A stretch of 64,000 nt of DNA from Sedimenticola thiotaurini (GTDB lineage Bacteria > Pseudomonadota > Gammaproteobacteria > Chromatiales > Chromatiaceae): positions 2,356,001 through 2,420,000 of the forward strand of contig NZ_CP011412.1 in NCBI RefSeq assembly GCF_001007875.1, written 5' to 3'. The notes under the pieces are model-generated. The model made no database searches and was not told the DNA's origin. It saw only the letters and a list, made by a program, of their open reading frames with translations. Every line of letters starts with the position of its first letter. Positions within the stretch are counted from its first letter, which is position 1. Of the stretch, positions 12,934 through 25,543 are shown piece after piece. A program made the translations under genes and the position numbers.

Positions 12934-12984
12934 GCCAGGATGAACCGATCGAGCAGCCGGCCATCACAAGGGGGCCTGCCTGGA

Positions 12985-14019
12985 TTACCCGGGCAAAGCC
13001 AAATCAGCAGTGGTCGCCCGTAACTGATCCACCAACTGCCGCTCCTGGAGCCGATCGAAGTGGGTCACATCCAGGGGCACACAACCACCAGCCATCTCGT
13101 ACCAGCCATAGCCACCGCTCCAGGGTGGCAACGCCCGACTGCCCTGGGGCATACGGGGCAGACAGTAGAGCACACCGGGATAGGCAATCAGGTTATAGGG
13201 CACTTTATGGCCGTGCAGTTCCAGGATAAAACGCCACGCCTCCTGGGCAGAATCAAATCGGTAACAGGTCGCCGGATAGGGTTCTTGCCCGCCGTTGTGA
13301 GCCCAGTGGGCGGCGCTCACGGGCAATGGCTCATCCCGCACAAACAGATGGAAATGGAGGTGATTCACTGAGGCACAGGCCCCGTAACTGTTATAACCGA
13401 CACCAACCCCCGGCAGCCCCTGCCCCAGGCCCGCCACAACCTGCCAGAGGTAGTCATGATCGGACTGCTGCAGGTACTGGGGCCGTCCCTCCCGGGCTTC
13501 CGGCACCAGCAGCCCCAGCAGCCGGACGAAGGGGAACTTGTTGTACAGCAGGGTTACATCCCGCCCCTCCAGTCTGCCGCGCCAGAATATCTCCTTGCGC
13601 AGAAAAGGTTTGGCAAAATGAAATCCGTCCGGATCAAAAGGTGCCGCCAGCCCGGTCACCCGCTGCTGCACCATACGGGGTGGTCGCAACACCCGCAGCG
13701 GGTTGAACTGCAACTCCCAGGGGCCGGCATGGCGCAATCTGATCGGGCCGAGATGATCCAGTCCCAGGCTCATCAGCTGGGAAAAGACGGCCCGATCATC
13801 CACGGCGTCGTCCAGGGAGTCCCCCGGTCGCGCTGACAGCCGGGAAAATTTCTGCCGCAATGGCCCGGACAGGCCGTCCCAGATCTCCGGCTCCATCATG
13901 GCGTTGGCCAGCACCAGAATAAACACGCCCAGCTCATCGTATCCCGACAACATGGTATTGAGACCAGCGATAAAGGCGCTCTGATAAGTTTCCGGTGATT
14001 CAAACAAAGAATGGCTCAT
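12985..14019 (-). CDS. HIT-superfamily nucleotidyltransferase/phosphorylase-like protein
   Basis: 344 residues. The core 'VNHLHFHLF' is the His-x-His-x-His triad of the HIT/GalT superfamily (around residue 222), preceded by 'NSYGACAS'. Overall shape resembles the VTC2-type GDP-hexose phosphorylases and ATP adenylyltransferases rather than small HIT hydrolases. The substrate is not predictable by eye. It stands alone, with a short gap to the convergent binding-protein gene and a 380-base non-coding region upstream. Confidence 0.6.
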   Translation of the reverse strand: MSHSLFESPETYQSAFIAGLNTMLSGYDELGVFILVLANAMMEPEIWDGLSGPLRQKFSRLSARPGDSLDDAVDDRAVFSQLMSLGLDHLGPIRLRHAGPWELQFNPLRVLRPPRMVQQRVTGLAAPFDPDGFHFAKPFLRKEIFWRGRLEGRDVTLLYNKFPFVRLLGLLVPEAREGRPQYLQQSDHDYLWQVVAGLGQGLPGVGVGYNSYGACASVNHLHFHLFVRDEPLPVSAAHWAHNGGQEPYPATCYRFDSAQEAWRFILELHGHKVPYNLIAYPGVLYCLPRMPQGSRALPPWSGGYGWYEMAGGCVPLDVTHFDRLQERQLVDQLRATTADLALPG

Positions 14020-14684: not shown

Positions 14685-16430
14685 ATGGAACTACAAACAC
14701 TTACTTACATTGTCGTCGGCCTGACCTTCGCGCTCTATATCGGCATCGCCGTATGGGCCCGGGCCAGCAGTACCGGCGAATTCTACGCTGCCGGTCGCGG
14801 CGTGCACCCGGTAGCCAACGGTATGGCTACCGCCGCCGACTGGATGTCAGCCGCATCCTTCATCTCCATGGCCGGAATTATCGCCTTCCAGGGCTATGAC
14901 GCCTCCCTGTTCCTGATGGGCTGGACCGGCGGTTATGTACTGCTGGCAATGCTGCTGGCGCCCTACCTGCGTAAGTTCGGCAAGTTCACTGTGCCGGAGT
15001 TTATCGGCGATCGCTACTATTCCCAGACCGCCCGTGTCGTGGCGGTGATCTGTCTGATCGTCGCTTCACTGACCTATGTAATCGGTCAGATGAAGGGTAT
15101 CGGCGTGGCCTTTGGCCGCTTCCTGGAAGTGGAGTACGACACCGGTCTCTACATCGGTATGGCTATCGTGTTCTTCTACGCGGTACTCGGTGGCATGAAG
15201 GGTATCACCTACACCCAGATCGCCCAGTACTGCGTACTGATCATGGCCTACACCATTCCGGCCATCTTCATCTCCCTGCAGTTGACCGGTAACCCGATCC
15301 CGCAGCTGGGCATGTTCAGCAACACCGTGGCGGACAATACCCCGCTGCTGGCCAAGCTGGACCAGACCATTGTGGATCTCGGCTTCGCGCAATATACCGC
15401 GCAGAAGACCAACACGCTGAACCTGGTGCTCTACACCTTCTCACTGATGATCGGTACCGCGGGCCTGCCCCACGTGATCATCCGCTTCTTCACCGTACCC
15501 AAGGTGAAGGACGCCCGTTCATCCGCTGGCTGGGCACTGGTGTTCATCAGCCTCCTCTACACCACCGCTCCGGCCGTGGGTGCCATGGCCATGCTGAACC
15601 TGGTCCATACGGTACAGCCGGGGGCTGTTGCGGCAGCTGATGGCGCACTGGAGTACGCTGAACGTCCCCAGTGGTTCAAGACCTGGGAGACCACCGGTCT
15701 GCTCAAGTTCGAGGACAAGAACGGTAACGGTCGCATCGAGTACCGTGGTCCGAAAGCTGAAGGCACTGCCAACGAGTTGACCGTCGACCGTGACATCATG
15801 GTACTGGCCAACCCGGAGATTGCTCAGCTGCCAAACTGGGTTATTGCCCTGGTGGCCGCAGGTGGCCTGGCTGCGGCGCTCTCTACCGCGGCAGGTCTGC
15901 TACTGGCCATCGCCTCCGCCATTTCTCATGATATGTTGAAGGGTATTTTCAATCCCCAGATCACGGAGAAAGGCGAACTCATGGCGGCCCGTATCTCCAT
16001 GGCGGGTGCCATTGCGGTAGCGGGTTATTTCGGTCTGAACCCCCCCGGCTTCGCCGCCCAGGTGGTGGCGCTGGCGTTCGGTCTGGCCGCCAGCTCGATC
16101 TTCCCGGCATTGATGATGGGTATCTTCAACAAACGCATCAACAACACCGGTGCAGTCACCGGCATGCTGGTGGGCCTGGGTACCACCCTGCTCTACATCT
16201 TCTGGTTCAAGGGCTGGTTCTTCATTCCGGGTACCGCAATGTCCGCCAATACGCCTGACAACTGGCTCCTGGGTATCTCACCCGAGGCGTTCGGTGCGGT
16301 AGGCGCGATACTGAACTTCGCATCAGCCATTCTGGTATCCAAGGTGACCGCAGAGCCACCCGAGCATATCCAGCACATGGTCGAGGACATCCGTACCCCC
16401 CGGGGTGCAGGTGGAGCCACCGGCCACTAA
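14685..16430 (+). CDS. Sodium:solute symporter, VC_2705 subfamily (acetate-type)
   Basis: 581 residues with about 13 transmembrane helices, typical of the SSS family close to ActP. Core stretches such as 'ATAADWMSAASFISMAGIIAFQG' and 'LSTAAGLLLAIASAISHD' carry the sodium-site serines. An extra-membrane insertion at about 305-370 with 'DKNGNGRIEYRG' looks like an EF-hand-like loop, a feature of this subfamily. It is co-transcribed with the DUF4212 gene. The likely substrate is acetate or another short carboxylate, consistent with the nearby glyoxylate shunt. Confidence 0.9.
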   Translation: MELQTLTYIVVGLTFALYIGIAVWARASSTGEFYAAGRGVHPVANGMATAADWMSAASFISMAGIIAFQGYDASLFLMGWTGGYVLLAMLLAPYLRKFGKFTVPEFIGDRYYSQTARVVAVICLIVASLTYVIGQMKGIGVAFGRFLEVEYDTGLYIGMAIVFFYAVLGGMKGITYTQIAQYCVLIMAYTIPAIFISLQLTGNPIPQLGMFSNTVADNTPLLAKLDQTIVDLGFAQYTAQKTNTLNLVLYTFSLMIGTAGLPHVIIRFFTVPKVKDARSSAGWALVFISLLYTTAPAVGAMAMLNLVHTVQPGAVAAADGALEYAERPQWFKTWETTGLLKFEDKNGNGRIEYRGPKAEGTANELTVDRDIMVLANPEIAQLPNWVIALVAAGGLAAALSTAAGLLLAIASAISHDMLKGIFNPQITEKGELMAARISMAGAIAVAGYFGLNPPGFAAQVVALAFGLAASSIFPALMMGIFNKRINNTGAVTGMLVGLGTTLLYIFWFKGWFFIPGTAMSANTPDNWLLGISPEAFGAVGAILNFASAILVSKVTAEPPEHIQHMVEDIRTPRGAGGATGH

Positions 16431-22907: not shown

Positions 22908-23141
22908 TCAATGCTTGTGCCGGCACTCCGAGCCCGGTACCGGATCATAGCCCCCCTCATGGAACGGATGACAGCGCAGAATGCGCCGGGTACCCATCCA
23001 CAGCCCGCGCAGCACGCCGTGGATCTCCACCGCCTCCCGGGTGTAGGCGGAGCAGCTGGGATAGTAACGGCAGTTGTTCCCCAGCAACGGACTGATCAGG
23101 TAGCTGTAGCCCTTCAATACCAGCAGCACCAACCGTTTCAT
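22908..23141 (-). CDS. yidD: Membrane-protein insertion efficiency factor
   Basis: 77 residues from the ATG at 23141, which overlaps the zur stop by four bases. The family signature '[17 protein letters not shown]' with its cysteine pair and '[13 protein letters not shown]' are present. YidD is usually encoded between rnpA and yidC, so its position at the end of a zinc operon is unusual and may be a second copy. Confidence 0.93.
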
Positions 23142-23605
23142 GCTTGCCCCCGTTGACTGCAGCGCTGACAGCGGCCGGTCACTTCGATGACCCGTGAATC
23201 CGCCTTGAAACCACACTCTTTGACTGCACTGCCCAGGGTACGCTCCACGCTGCGACTCTCCAGCTCCCGCACTTCACCACAATCCCGACAGATCAGGAAC
23301 TGGCTGGAGTGAGGATGGTCCAGATGCACACAACCCACGTAGGCATTCAGGGACTCGATGCGATGCACCAATCCATGTTCCAGCAGAAACTCCAGGGCCC
23401 GATAGACAGTCGGCGGTTTGGCAGTTGGCACGCCACTCTTCAGCAGTTCCAGGATATCGTAGGCACCCAGTGGCTCGCCGCTGGTGCAGAGAATTTCCAG
23501 CACCTGACGACGCTGGGGGGTCAACCGGGCACCCCGCCCCTCGCAAAGCTGCTCCGCCACACGCAATATTTTTCCACAGTCCGTACTACAGGAGTCCGCT
23601 TTCAT
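23138..23605 (-). CDS. zur: Zinc uptake regulator, Fur family
   Basis: 155 residues. The winged-helix domain ('[13 protein letters not shown]', '[22 protein letters not shown]') is followed by the dimerisation domain with His-rich '[21 protein letters not shown]' and a C-terminal Cys-x2-Cys ('RCQRCSQ'), giving the structural zinc site. Linkage to znu genes and a Zur-type box identify it as Zur rather than Fur. It overlaps znuB and yidD by four bases each. Unlike the transporter genes of the same operon it looks intact. Confidence 0.93.
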
Positions 23606-24033
23606 TGCACCACCTTCGTCAATTGCCGGCGCAGATCCCTCCGTTTCCGCCCCGTAGTATAGAGCAGCGAGATCATATAGGTAACTCCCGCCACCAGGAT
23701 AATGGTGGCACCCGCCGGCAGGTCGGGCGTATAGGAGATAAACAGCCCTGACAGGGTAAACAGCGCAATGACCAGAATAAGGCCCACCACCTGGATCAGC
23801 AGCACCACGGTCACCGCCGCCACCAGCGCACCACCCAGTGGACTCGCACCGATAAAAAAGGCGATGCCCATTCCACCCAGTACGCTGTGGGAGATGCCGC
23901 CGGCCATGAATCCAATCCGTTTGACCACCACGTAACTACCGATGATGCCGCAGCCGATACTGGCCAGCAGACCACCAATCAGCGCATGCTGCAGAAACGG
24001 ATATTCCCAAAGTGCTGTAAATACTTCCATCAT
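23602..24033 (-). pseudogene. znuB: Zinc ABC transporter permease, two apparent internal deletions
   Basis: 143 residues in an open frame, but the family has about 265-280. The first 75 residues match the family N-terminus ('YPFLQHALIGGLLASIGCGIIGSYVVVKRI', then 'GGISHSVLGGMG'). The frame then jumps from 'GGALVAAV' straight to 'TVVLLIQVVGLILVIAL', which in the family lies about 110 residues later. It jumps again from 'VIAL' to 'FTLSGLFISYTPDLPAGATII', skipping the roughly 28 residues with the conserved 'IPAA' motif. Both gaps keep frame. The product would lack most central helices and should not form a channel. It overlaps zur by four bases and follows znuC after 11 bases. Family alignment is from memory; lengths are approximate. 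Confidence 0.8.
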
Positions 24034-24044
24034 ACCCCCGTCCC

Positions 24045-24773
24045 TCAGTGCCGATGCTCCACCATCCGCACATCCGCATCATAGAGCGCATGTATGGCGT
24101 CTCCATCAATCGAGGCGGTGGAGTGACAGATCGGGGTGCGATTCAGACAGGCAACCCGGTTCACATAACCGGAGATGAAACCGACATCGGGGGAAACCAC
24201 CACGATGGTCATCCGTTCATTAAAACGTTTCAACAGATCGAAGATTTCCGTCTCGATACGCATATCGATGTTAGCGGTCGGCTCATCCAGTATCAGGATA
24301 CGGGGATCACAGGCCAATGCCCGGGCCACCAGCACCCGTTGCAGCTGCCCACCCGACAGGGTACAAAGCTGCCTGGCGGCAAGATTCAACACCTCGGTTT
24401 CGGCCATGGCCTGACGGGCCGCCTCCCTGTCACGGCGCCGGTAGTTTCCGAACAGCCCGGATGTACCCAGCCGTCCCATCAGCACCGTCTGCTCGACGGT
24501 TATGGGAAAGTCGCGGCTGAACTGGGGATACTGGGGGACATAGCCGATCTGTCTGCGGCTCTGTTCCGGCGGCTTGCCCAACACCCGCACTTTACCCTTG
24601 GGTGGTTCCAGCAGCCCCAGCATCAACTTCAGCAGGGTGCTCTTGCCCCCCGCATTGGGACCCACAATGCCGATAAACTCGTGCTCGGCGATCTCCAGGT
24701 GGACCCCATCCAGCACCAACGGGCCACCGTAGGAGAAAGAGACATCCTGCAGTGACACCACCGGCGCGTTCAT
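24045..24773 (-). CDS. znuC: Zinc ABC transporter ATPase, H-loop histidine replaced
   Basis: 242 residues, normal length. Walker A is Gly-Pro-Asn-Ala-Gly-Gly-Lys-Ser-Thr, the signature is Leu-Ser-Gly-Gly-Gln-Leu-Gln-Arg, and Walker B is Ile-Leu-Ile-Leu-Asp-Glu-Pro. The switch (H-loop) that should read Val-Ser-His-Asp reads Val-Ser-Pro-Asp; the proline codon CCC (24189-24191) is one base from CAC. Loss of this histidine abolishes or strongly reduces ATP hydrolysis in well-studied ABC ATPases. With the damage in znuA and znuB this suggests the transporter is dead. It overlaps the znuA remnant by four bases. Confidence 0.88.
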   Translation of the reverse strand: MNAPVVSLQDVSFSYGGPLVLDGVHLEIAEHEFIGIVGPNAGGKSTLLKLMLGLLEPPKGKVRVLGKPPEQSRRQIGYVPQYPQFSRDFPITVEQTVLMGRLGTSGLFGNYRRRDREAARQAMAETEVLNLAARQLCTLSGGQLQRVLVARALACDPRILILDEPTANIDMRIETEIFDLLKRFNERMTIVVVSPDVGFISGYVNRVACLNRTPICHSTASIDGDAIHALYDADVRMVEHRH

Positions 24774-25493
24774 TGATAGGCCTCGCTGATTGAACGGGCG
24801 ACCTGACGCAGATTGTCCAGGTAGGACTCCGCCAGCGGGTTAAGTGTTACCAACCGGGCCCCCATGGCACTCGCCAGCGTTGCAGCCTGGTCACGACTGA
24901 ACTGTTGCTGCACAAAAATCACCTGGACTCGCTCCCTCTTTGCCTGTTCCATCAGGCGAGTCAGGGTGCGCGCACCGGCCTCTTTCCCCTCACTTTCGAT
25001 CGACACCTGCCGCAGGCCGAAAGCATCGGCAAAATAGCCCCAGGAGGGGTGAAACACCATGAAACTGCGCCCTTCCAGCGGCTGCAGAAGGGTGTGAATT
25101 TCCTCTTCTAGCGCCAGCAACTCCTGCTTAAAGCGGTCATGATTCTCCTTGTAGGCCGCAGCATTCGCCGGATCCAGCTCAATCAACCGGTCACGCAGAT
25201 AGCCGATCATGATCCGCACGTTGGCGGGATCGAGCCAGATATGGGGATCCGCTCCTCCTTCCTCATGGTGATGATCATGATGATCGAAATCATGGTGATG
25301 TCCACCCGCCGGCTCCATCTCCCGCAGTGTCAGCCCCTGACGTGCATCCAGAACAGAAATGTTCGGGTTATTCTTTTGCACTGTCCCCATCCAGACATCT
25401 TCAAAAGGCATGCCGACGCGATAAAACAGCGCCGCCCGTGACAGCGCCGCCTGTCACCAACAACAGCGCTAACAACAGATTTCGTAAGATCAT
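24770..25493 (-). pseudogene. znuA: Zinc-binding periplasmic protein, N-terminal deletion with frameshift
   Basis: The C-terminal 213 residues (from 25411) match ZnuA: His-rich loop around 'GGHHHDFDHHDHHHEEGG', then 'ADPHIWLDP', 'FMVFHPSWGYFADAFGLRQV' and 'VIFVQQQFSR'. Upstream, an ATG at 25493 opens a good signal peptide ('ILRNLLLALLLV') in another frame that stops at TGA near 25404. The ZnuA frame can be followed back from 25411 only as 'GALFYRVGMPFEDVW', fused directly to the leader. About 75 residues with the first metal-ligand histidine are missing and the reading frame is shifted. The usual Asp of 'LDPLA' is Asn. A Zur-type box lies 31 bases upstream, so this is the true 5' end of the operon. 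Confidence 0.82.
25426..25455. repeat. 15-base tandem repeat in the znuA leader
   Basis: ACAGCGCCGCC occurs at 25426-25436 and again at 25441-25451, giving a 15-base period in which only the ends differ. It codes for a duplicated Val-Thr-Gly-Gly-Ala in the signal peptide and touches the point where znuA sequence is missing. Confidence 0.7.
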
Positions 25494-25523: not shown

Positions 25524-25543
25524 TGTTATGTTATCACATAACA
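25524..25543. promoter_or_regulatory. Zur-type operator between znuA and the divergent zinc-ribbon gene
   Basis: Perfect 8-base arms TGTTATGT and ACATAACA around TATC. This agrees with the GTTATA-type Zur boxes of gammaproteobacteria. It lies 31 bases from the znuA start and 77 bases from the divergent start at 25620, so one bound dimer pair could control both. Confidence 0.75.

Follow-up and report, generated by a model that had tools for sequence, protein, structure and literature searches.

The native zinc importer operon znuA-znuC-znuB-zur of Sedimenticola thiotaurini SIP-G1 is likely to have decayed recently, a transferred gene cluster having made the importer redundant; our rough probability for this reading is 0.8. 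Judging from the lesions described below, the native operon would no longer make a working zinc importer. A search of open-licence PMC papers, covering znuA pseudogenes or horizontal transfer and the znu genes of Sedimenticola, found no report of this case.

SIP-G1 is a salt-marsh sulfur bacterium. Its genome of 3,962,284 bases consists of two contigs, the larger of 3,928,944 bases, and the plasmid has 33,340 bases (PMC4472907). It was assembled from PacBio reads by HGAP at 294x coverage with two rounds of Quiver (PMC4472907). The analysed stretch of 64,000 nucleotides (positions 2,356,001 to 2,420,000 of NZ_CP011412.1) is called the window. The genus set comprised SIP-G1, a single strain, and eight other genomes (nine in total), and ZnuA of S. 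selenatireducens (291 aa) served as the reference for residue numbering. Two metagenome-assembled genomes labelled S. thiotaurini, BK-3 and HyVt-443, were not taken as conspecific because their ZnuA identity is just 51-64%; znuB is full-length in both. The features of the native locus are as follows.

25524..25543, minus strand: Zur-box-like palindrome upstream of znuA, a putative Zur site found by pattern scan
25401..25493, minus strand: signal-peptide frame of 30 codons left from the start of znuA (sequence and alignment)
25450..25451, minus strand: approximate junction of the znuA deletion, about 155 nt lost (alignments to relatives)
24770..25411, minus strand: ZnuA remnant of 213 aa without signal peptide (Pfam ZnuA and alignment); the same frame is open upstream to 25453
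24045..24773, minus strand: full-length ZnuC of 242 aa (Pfam ABC_tran; 87.5% identity to S. selenatireducens)
24189..24191, minus strand: znuC codon 195, in which CCC encodes Pro instead of the H-loop His (alignment)
23602..24033, minus strand: ZnuB remnant of 143 aa (Pfam ABC-3, profile positions 2-64 of 258 only; alignment)
23818..23819, minus strand: junction of the 339 nt deletion in znuB (DNA alignment)
23760..23761, minus strand: junction of the 84 nt deletion in znuB (DNA alignment)
23138..23605, minus strand: zur, 155 aa, intact frame, its start overlapping the znuB stop in ATGA (Pfam FUR; alignment)
22908..23216, minus strand: gene downstream of zur that we take to be yidD-like, intact frame, in the same place in relatives

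The signal peptide of ZnuA and the rest of the protein lie in different frames, as stated in the initial annotation. The frame that starts with ATG at 25493 meets a stop at 25401, and the ZnuA frame continues to 24770. The remnant, taken from ATG 25411, matches the Pfam ZnuA profile with E 3.4e-50 at positions 58-263 of 263. In alignments with relatives, homology of the right arm starts at AALSRAALFYR, and the junction falls approximately 26 nt ahead of ALFYR. Residues from about 17 to about 68 are absent. By hand count on the alignments the loss is about 155 nt, or about 52 codons out of 291, roughly 18% of the protein, and it changes the frame; this is considerably less than the loss of the N-terminal half, with a join at residue ~95, that had been proposed. 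The left edge of the deletion cannot be placed exactly, since conservation of the signal peptide is poor. As an independent measure, 118 nt separate the palindrome in SIP-G1 from the codon that aligns with ATG 25411, versus 278 nt in three relatives (G001, G003 and G006), so that the SIP-G1 stretch is 160 nt shorter. The open frame of znuA has 296-313 codons in all eight other genomes of the genus. Thus, with about 52 codons gone, the frame changed and the Pfam match starting at position 58, the native gene does not encode a ZnuA with a signal peptide and a full binding fold. The sequence GGCGGCGCTGT, which occurs twice near the junction, was considered as a clue to the mechanism; by alignment it belongs wholly to the right arm and is uninformative.

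The C-terminal part of the protein and its His-rich loop are intact, as described earlier: the remnant retains the His-rich stretch and the histidines of DPH and FHPSW. The segment with the first ligand is gone with the deletion. It reads PHTYEP in 1pq4, the best-matching solved protein, where we take the His to be a metal ligand, and PETFEP in S. selenatireducens. The claim that the first metal ligand is missing thus holds for the segment but not for the His itself, as all eight genus relatives have Glu at this position anyway. Among 89 ZnuA loci (L035-L114 and nine of L014-L023, with at least one genome counted twice) the position is occupied by Ala in 45, His in 27, Glu in 11, and Val and Thr in three each; a large group of ZnuA-like proteins in this survey is without the first His. 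The second ZnuA of SIP-G1 keeps it. One protein of the survey, from L045, has 223 aa in the alignment owing to the chosen ATG, and its frame is open farther upstream. A conserved Asp is replaced by Asn in the SIP-G1 remnant. This substitution was not counted as inactivating because Asn occurs at the same place in six of the 89 relatives.

The breakage of znuA by an N-terminal deletion and frame change, as initially annotated, is thus upheld, but the damage extends beyond this gene to znuB and to the active site encoded by znuC. The H-loop of the native ZnuC reads SPD (His195 to Pro), versus SHD in all eleven other aligned sequences. The remaining ATPase motifs are unchanged in the alignment; with Pro for the H-loop His, the set of motifs is incomplete. 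When the H-loop His is mutated, HlyB, HisP, MalK and MsbA lose most of their ATPase activity; Pdr5 is an exception, the H-loop being not essential there (PMC6222333). At 158 positions invariant in the eight genus relatives, the native ZnuC has four private changes, the one in the H-loop included; two of the four introduce proline. The corresponding number in single relatives ranges from zero to seven. A PDB search with ZnuC gave nothing beyond family membership.

ZnuB has 143 aa versus 284 in S. selenatireducens and 283-288 in the eight genus relatives, and so is not a full-length permease. DNA alignment with the eight relatives shows two in-frame gaps of 339 and 84 nt, which together remove 141 of 284 codons. 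A genome search with an intact relative recovered both native pieces and the complete second copy, and nothing of the lost pieces elsewhere. Short repeats may have mediated the deletions, but the case is too weak to claim at znuB: exact repeats through the breakpoints, as read in the eight relatives, measure 0-7 nt at the first (7 nt in one relative, 4 nt in another, 3 nt in a third, none in the other five) and 0-5 nt at the second (5 nt in two relatives).

The lengths of 58 window genes were compared with their counterparts on one contig of S. selenatireducens, after overlapping frames and matches below 90 bits had been removed. Six are shorter by more than 25 residues, znuA and znuB among them; three others lack 36-51 N-terminal residues, possibly owing to start choice, and one is truncated by the window end. 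One gene of the 58 is longer than its counterpart. Separately, the gene at 14685-16430 encodes 581 aa and the corresponding S. selenatireducens frame, with 93% identity, only 377 aa; the latter copy may be broken.

The regulator gene zur has an open frame. Its product scores above the Pfam FUR cut-off, and its best NCBIfam match is the Zur model, with 151.5 bits, below the cut-off of 167. The cysteines and histidines that we take to be its metal sites are unchanged in the alignment. The stop of znuA overlaps the start of znuC, and the stop of znuB that of zur, in SIP-G1 and, with few exceptions, in the genus relatives. The palindrome upstream of znuA is the sole site of its kind in the window at three or fewer mismatches (0.01 expected), and its exact 15-base core occurs upstream of znuA in all nine genus genomes. 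It is a putative binding site of Zur. A wider regulon of this type was considered and rejected: the exact core occurs one to three times per genus genome, and the site upstream of znuA alone is shared. The other exact core site in SIP-G1 lies between two genes with no evident link to zinc; with one mismatch there are nine sites in SIP-G1, versus three for the reversed pattern. The presumed yidD-like gene is seen next to both zinc clusters, downstream of the native zur and, in the second cluster, after the cobW-like gene at L115 ~13200-13480; one also lies near znuA in L015.

A search for the ZnuA family found four loci in the SIP-G1 genome. One of them, at 1,562,378-1,563,253, is a complete second znuA that adjoins znuC, znuB and a second FUR-family gene; the frames of znuA, znuC and znuB are all complete, with 323, 253 and 290 aa. 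The second ZnuA scores above the Pfam cut-off and gets 121 bits from the NCBIfam ZnuA equivalog model, whose cut-off is 268. The neighbouring genes match, by Pfam, ZrgA, DUF3299, NicO, cobW and DUF1826. The cluster also contains a second threonyl-tRNA synthetase gene (above the NCBIfam cut-off) and a carbonic-anhydrase-like gene (below the cut-off), together with genes that we take to encode an ABC ATPase, a permease, a DUF1007-like protein and KatG. In the cobW/COG0523 gene (L115:11979-13091) the C-terminal part lies in another frame, with a break at approximately 12950-12970. The gene seems frameshifted, and the break may be real or a leftover consensus error. Candidate Zur boxes in this cluster are weak: two intergenic sites with two mismatches (L115 10405 and 11780), and nine sites versus 3.6 expected at three or fewer mismatches. 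A stricter palindrome scan of the intergenic stretches found none, and the 20-base pattern is absent from the cluster. Given its complete frames, the second znuACB could transport zinc and do the importer's job. The comparison with close relatives and the search for a second copy, both proposed in the initial annotation, thus yielded a full-length znuA in all eight genus genomes and an intact one elsewhere in SIP-G1; therefore a real loss is favoured.

The second-type ZnuA occurs in one of the nine genus genomes, SIP-G1; the other eight have the native copy, with 46-54% identity in the best piece. In the ZnuB tree (41 rows) the second ZnuB groups with that of G364, a genome of another family, with support 100/99, and then with G268, of the same family as G364 (99/86); the native remnant falls among the nine genus rows (100/99). 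In the ZnuC tree (30 rows) the second ZnuC again groups with G364 (99/96), the next neighbour being not G268 but G015, of the own family (96/98), and the native ZnuC falls within the genus clade. The gene order on the G364 contig is that of the second cluster: znuA (truncated at the end of the contig), znuC, znuB, zur, zrgA, ATPase and permease, with 79, 82, 93, 79, 69, 80 and 89% identity, respectively. DUF3299 was not found on this contig. Threonyl-tRNA synthetase identity between S. selenatireducens and G364 is 72%, and the second ZnuB is 93% identical to that of G364. Some genomes of the own family, e.g. G015 and G275, carry znuC and znuB of the island type. In G015 the second-type znuA and zur are found together, and znuC and znuB are on another contig (L015, L175).

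On one side the second cluster is bordered by a tRNA-Ser(GGA) gene; no border was found on the other side. The genes outside it are conserved in G002, G003 and G006. The contigs of G003 and G002 end at this site; that of G006 continues past the tRNA gene, and no SIP-G1 frame in L192 and L115 with a length of 130 aa or more has a match in its 40 kb (thresholds: identity above 55%, more than 150 bits). Beside the same tRNA gene, at L115:18100-18948, a short sequence recurs in several near-copies, which are read as similar frames. The second cluster thus has both a patchy presence and its closest kin in another family, and we regard it as transferred and as lying at a tRNA site of variable content.

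The following scenario would account for the two loci. A second complete znuACB-zur would have been gained within a zinc-starvation cluster near the tRNA-Ser gene. The foreign cluster would supply a full importer, so that the native one would lose value and its loss could be tolerated. Deletions and the change in the ATPase site would follow in the native importer genes, and zur would stay open, perhaps because it is still used. Gain before loss is the order that we infer. Both this order and the direction of transfer are made less certain by the own-family genomes with island-type genes and by the ZnuC tree, in which G015 rather than G268 is the next neighbour.

Non-synonymous divergence gives a rough view of the age of the decay. 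Branch dN of the window lineage was divided by that of the S. selenatireducens lineage, with three outgroups. The ratio is 1.6-2.0 for the znuA remnant, 2.1-4.3 for znuC, 1.2-3.1 for znuB and 3.3-4.4 for zur, the highest of six genes; the two controls give 2.0-3.5 (GGDEF gene) and 1.5-2.0 (256-aa upstream gene). These figures are rough, since synonymous changes approach saturation with the outer outgroup. The zur product has five private changes at 91 invariant positions, two of them radical. Neither branch dN nor private changes at invariant sites separated the znu genes from zur and the controls, and thus no relaxed selection was detected by these measures. Since zur is no better conserved than the broken genes, it is the open frame that speaks for continued selection on it. 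As the remnants have no excess of amino acid changes, either the genes were lost recently or what is left of them is still under constraint. A recent loss seems the better explanation, and the decay is probably recent relative to the split from S. selenatireducens.

The second cluster could be an old paralogue lost in the other Sedimenticola, the native operon decaying for another reason. Such an origin would fit the island-type znuC and znuB in G015 and G275. However, the second-type ZnuA is absent from all eight other genus genomes, ZnuB and ZnuC join G364 with strong support inside own-family rows, and the 93% identity of ZnuB to G364 is well above the 72% for the threonyl-tRNA synthetase; we consider an old paralogue unlikely. 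It is also conceivable that the gaps themselves are artefacts, the three of them being consensus errors in genes that are intact in the cell. The second cluster's cobW-like gene probably has a single-base frame break, a sign that small errors or small real breaks do occur in this assembly. On the other hand, gaps of about 155, 339 and 84 nt do not resemble PacBio errors, two of the three are multiples of three, the H-loop change is a substitution, and the coverage was 294x with two Quiver rounds, so that this explanation is very improbable.

If the lesions are real, the shortened genes might yet have a role. The native locus could be a maintained half-way state, in which only erosion that keeps the overlapping frames into zur survives and the dead genes, from the znuA fragment through znuC to the shortened znuB, serve as translational carriers that pass ribosomes on to zur. 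The stop/start overlaps at znuA-znuC and znuB-zur, present here and in most genus relatives, the two in-frame deletions of znuB, the position of ATG 25411 just ahead of the stop of the 30-codon frame, and the lack of excess amino acid change in the remnants all agree with this. But two in-frame deletions would arise by chance in one case out of nine, the znuA deletion is out of frame, and a recent loss gives the same dN; such maintenance is thus quite unlikely. Still harder to accept is that the shortened ZnuA, ZnuC and ZnuB still yield a functional protein or a new one, such as a fragment that holds zinc in the cytoplasm. The frames are open, and ZnuA keeps its His-rich stretch and two conserved histidines. 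Against this, short forms occur in no relative (the genes are full-length in all eight genus genomes), ZnuB has lost half its length and ZnuC its H-loop His, and the conserved Asp of ZnuA is Asn, though this is also seen in the six relatives mentioned above; we give this possibility almost no credence. Recent decay of the native operon after transfer of the second cluster remains our preferred reading.

Thus SIP-G1 seems to hold a transporter operon that a foreign cluster is in the course of replacing; its three transport genes are damaged and its regulator is whole. With two zur genes and a single importer that appears complete, the strain allows tests of the order of loss and of cross-talk between the regulators. 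For annotation, the native znuA, znuB and znuC of SIP-G1 should not count as a working zinc importer.

In gene order, gene families and the Zur-box-like palindrome upstream, the native locus resembles a ZnuABC operon with linked zur; operons of zur with znuABC and autoregulated zur genes have been described (PMC6103462). It differs in that all three importer genes are lesioned and the regulator is not. The second cluster resembles Zur-linked zinc-starvation clusters, as it contains the companions of Zur named in PMC2770081, namely genes for threonyl-tRNA synthetase, gamma carbonic anhydrase, COG0523 and DUF1826. It also has ZrgA and an ABC pair, as does the Vibrio zrgABCDE system, which imports zinc (PMC9820375). 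Unlike zinc-starvation clusters, it adds its own znuACB-zur, and its cobW-like gene seems frameshifted. Replacement of this kind is a known process, xenologous gene replacement, in which a transferred copy displaces the native one, and the present case is a new example. The complete copy of foreign affinity and the broken native copy conform to it; the difference is that SIP-G1 appears to be caught part-way, with an intact native regulator and two zur genes.
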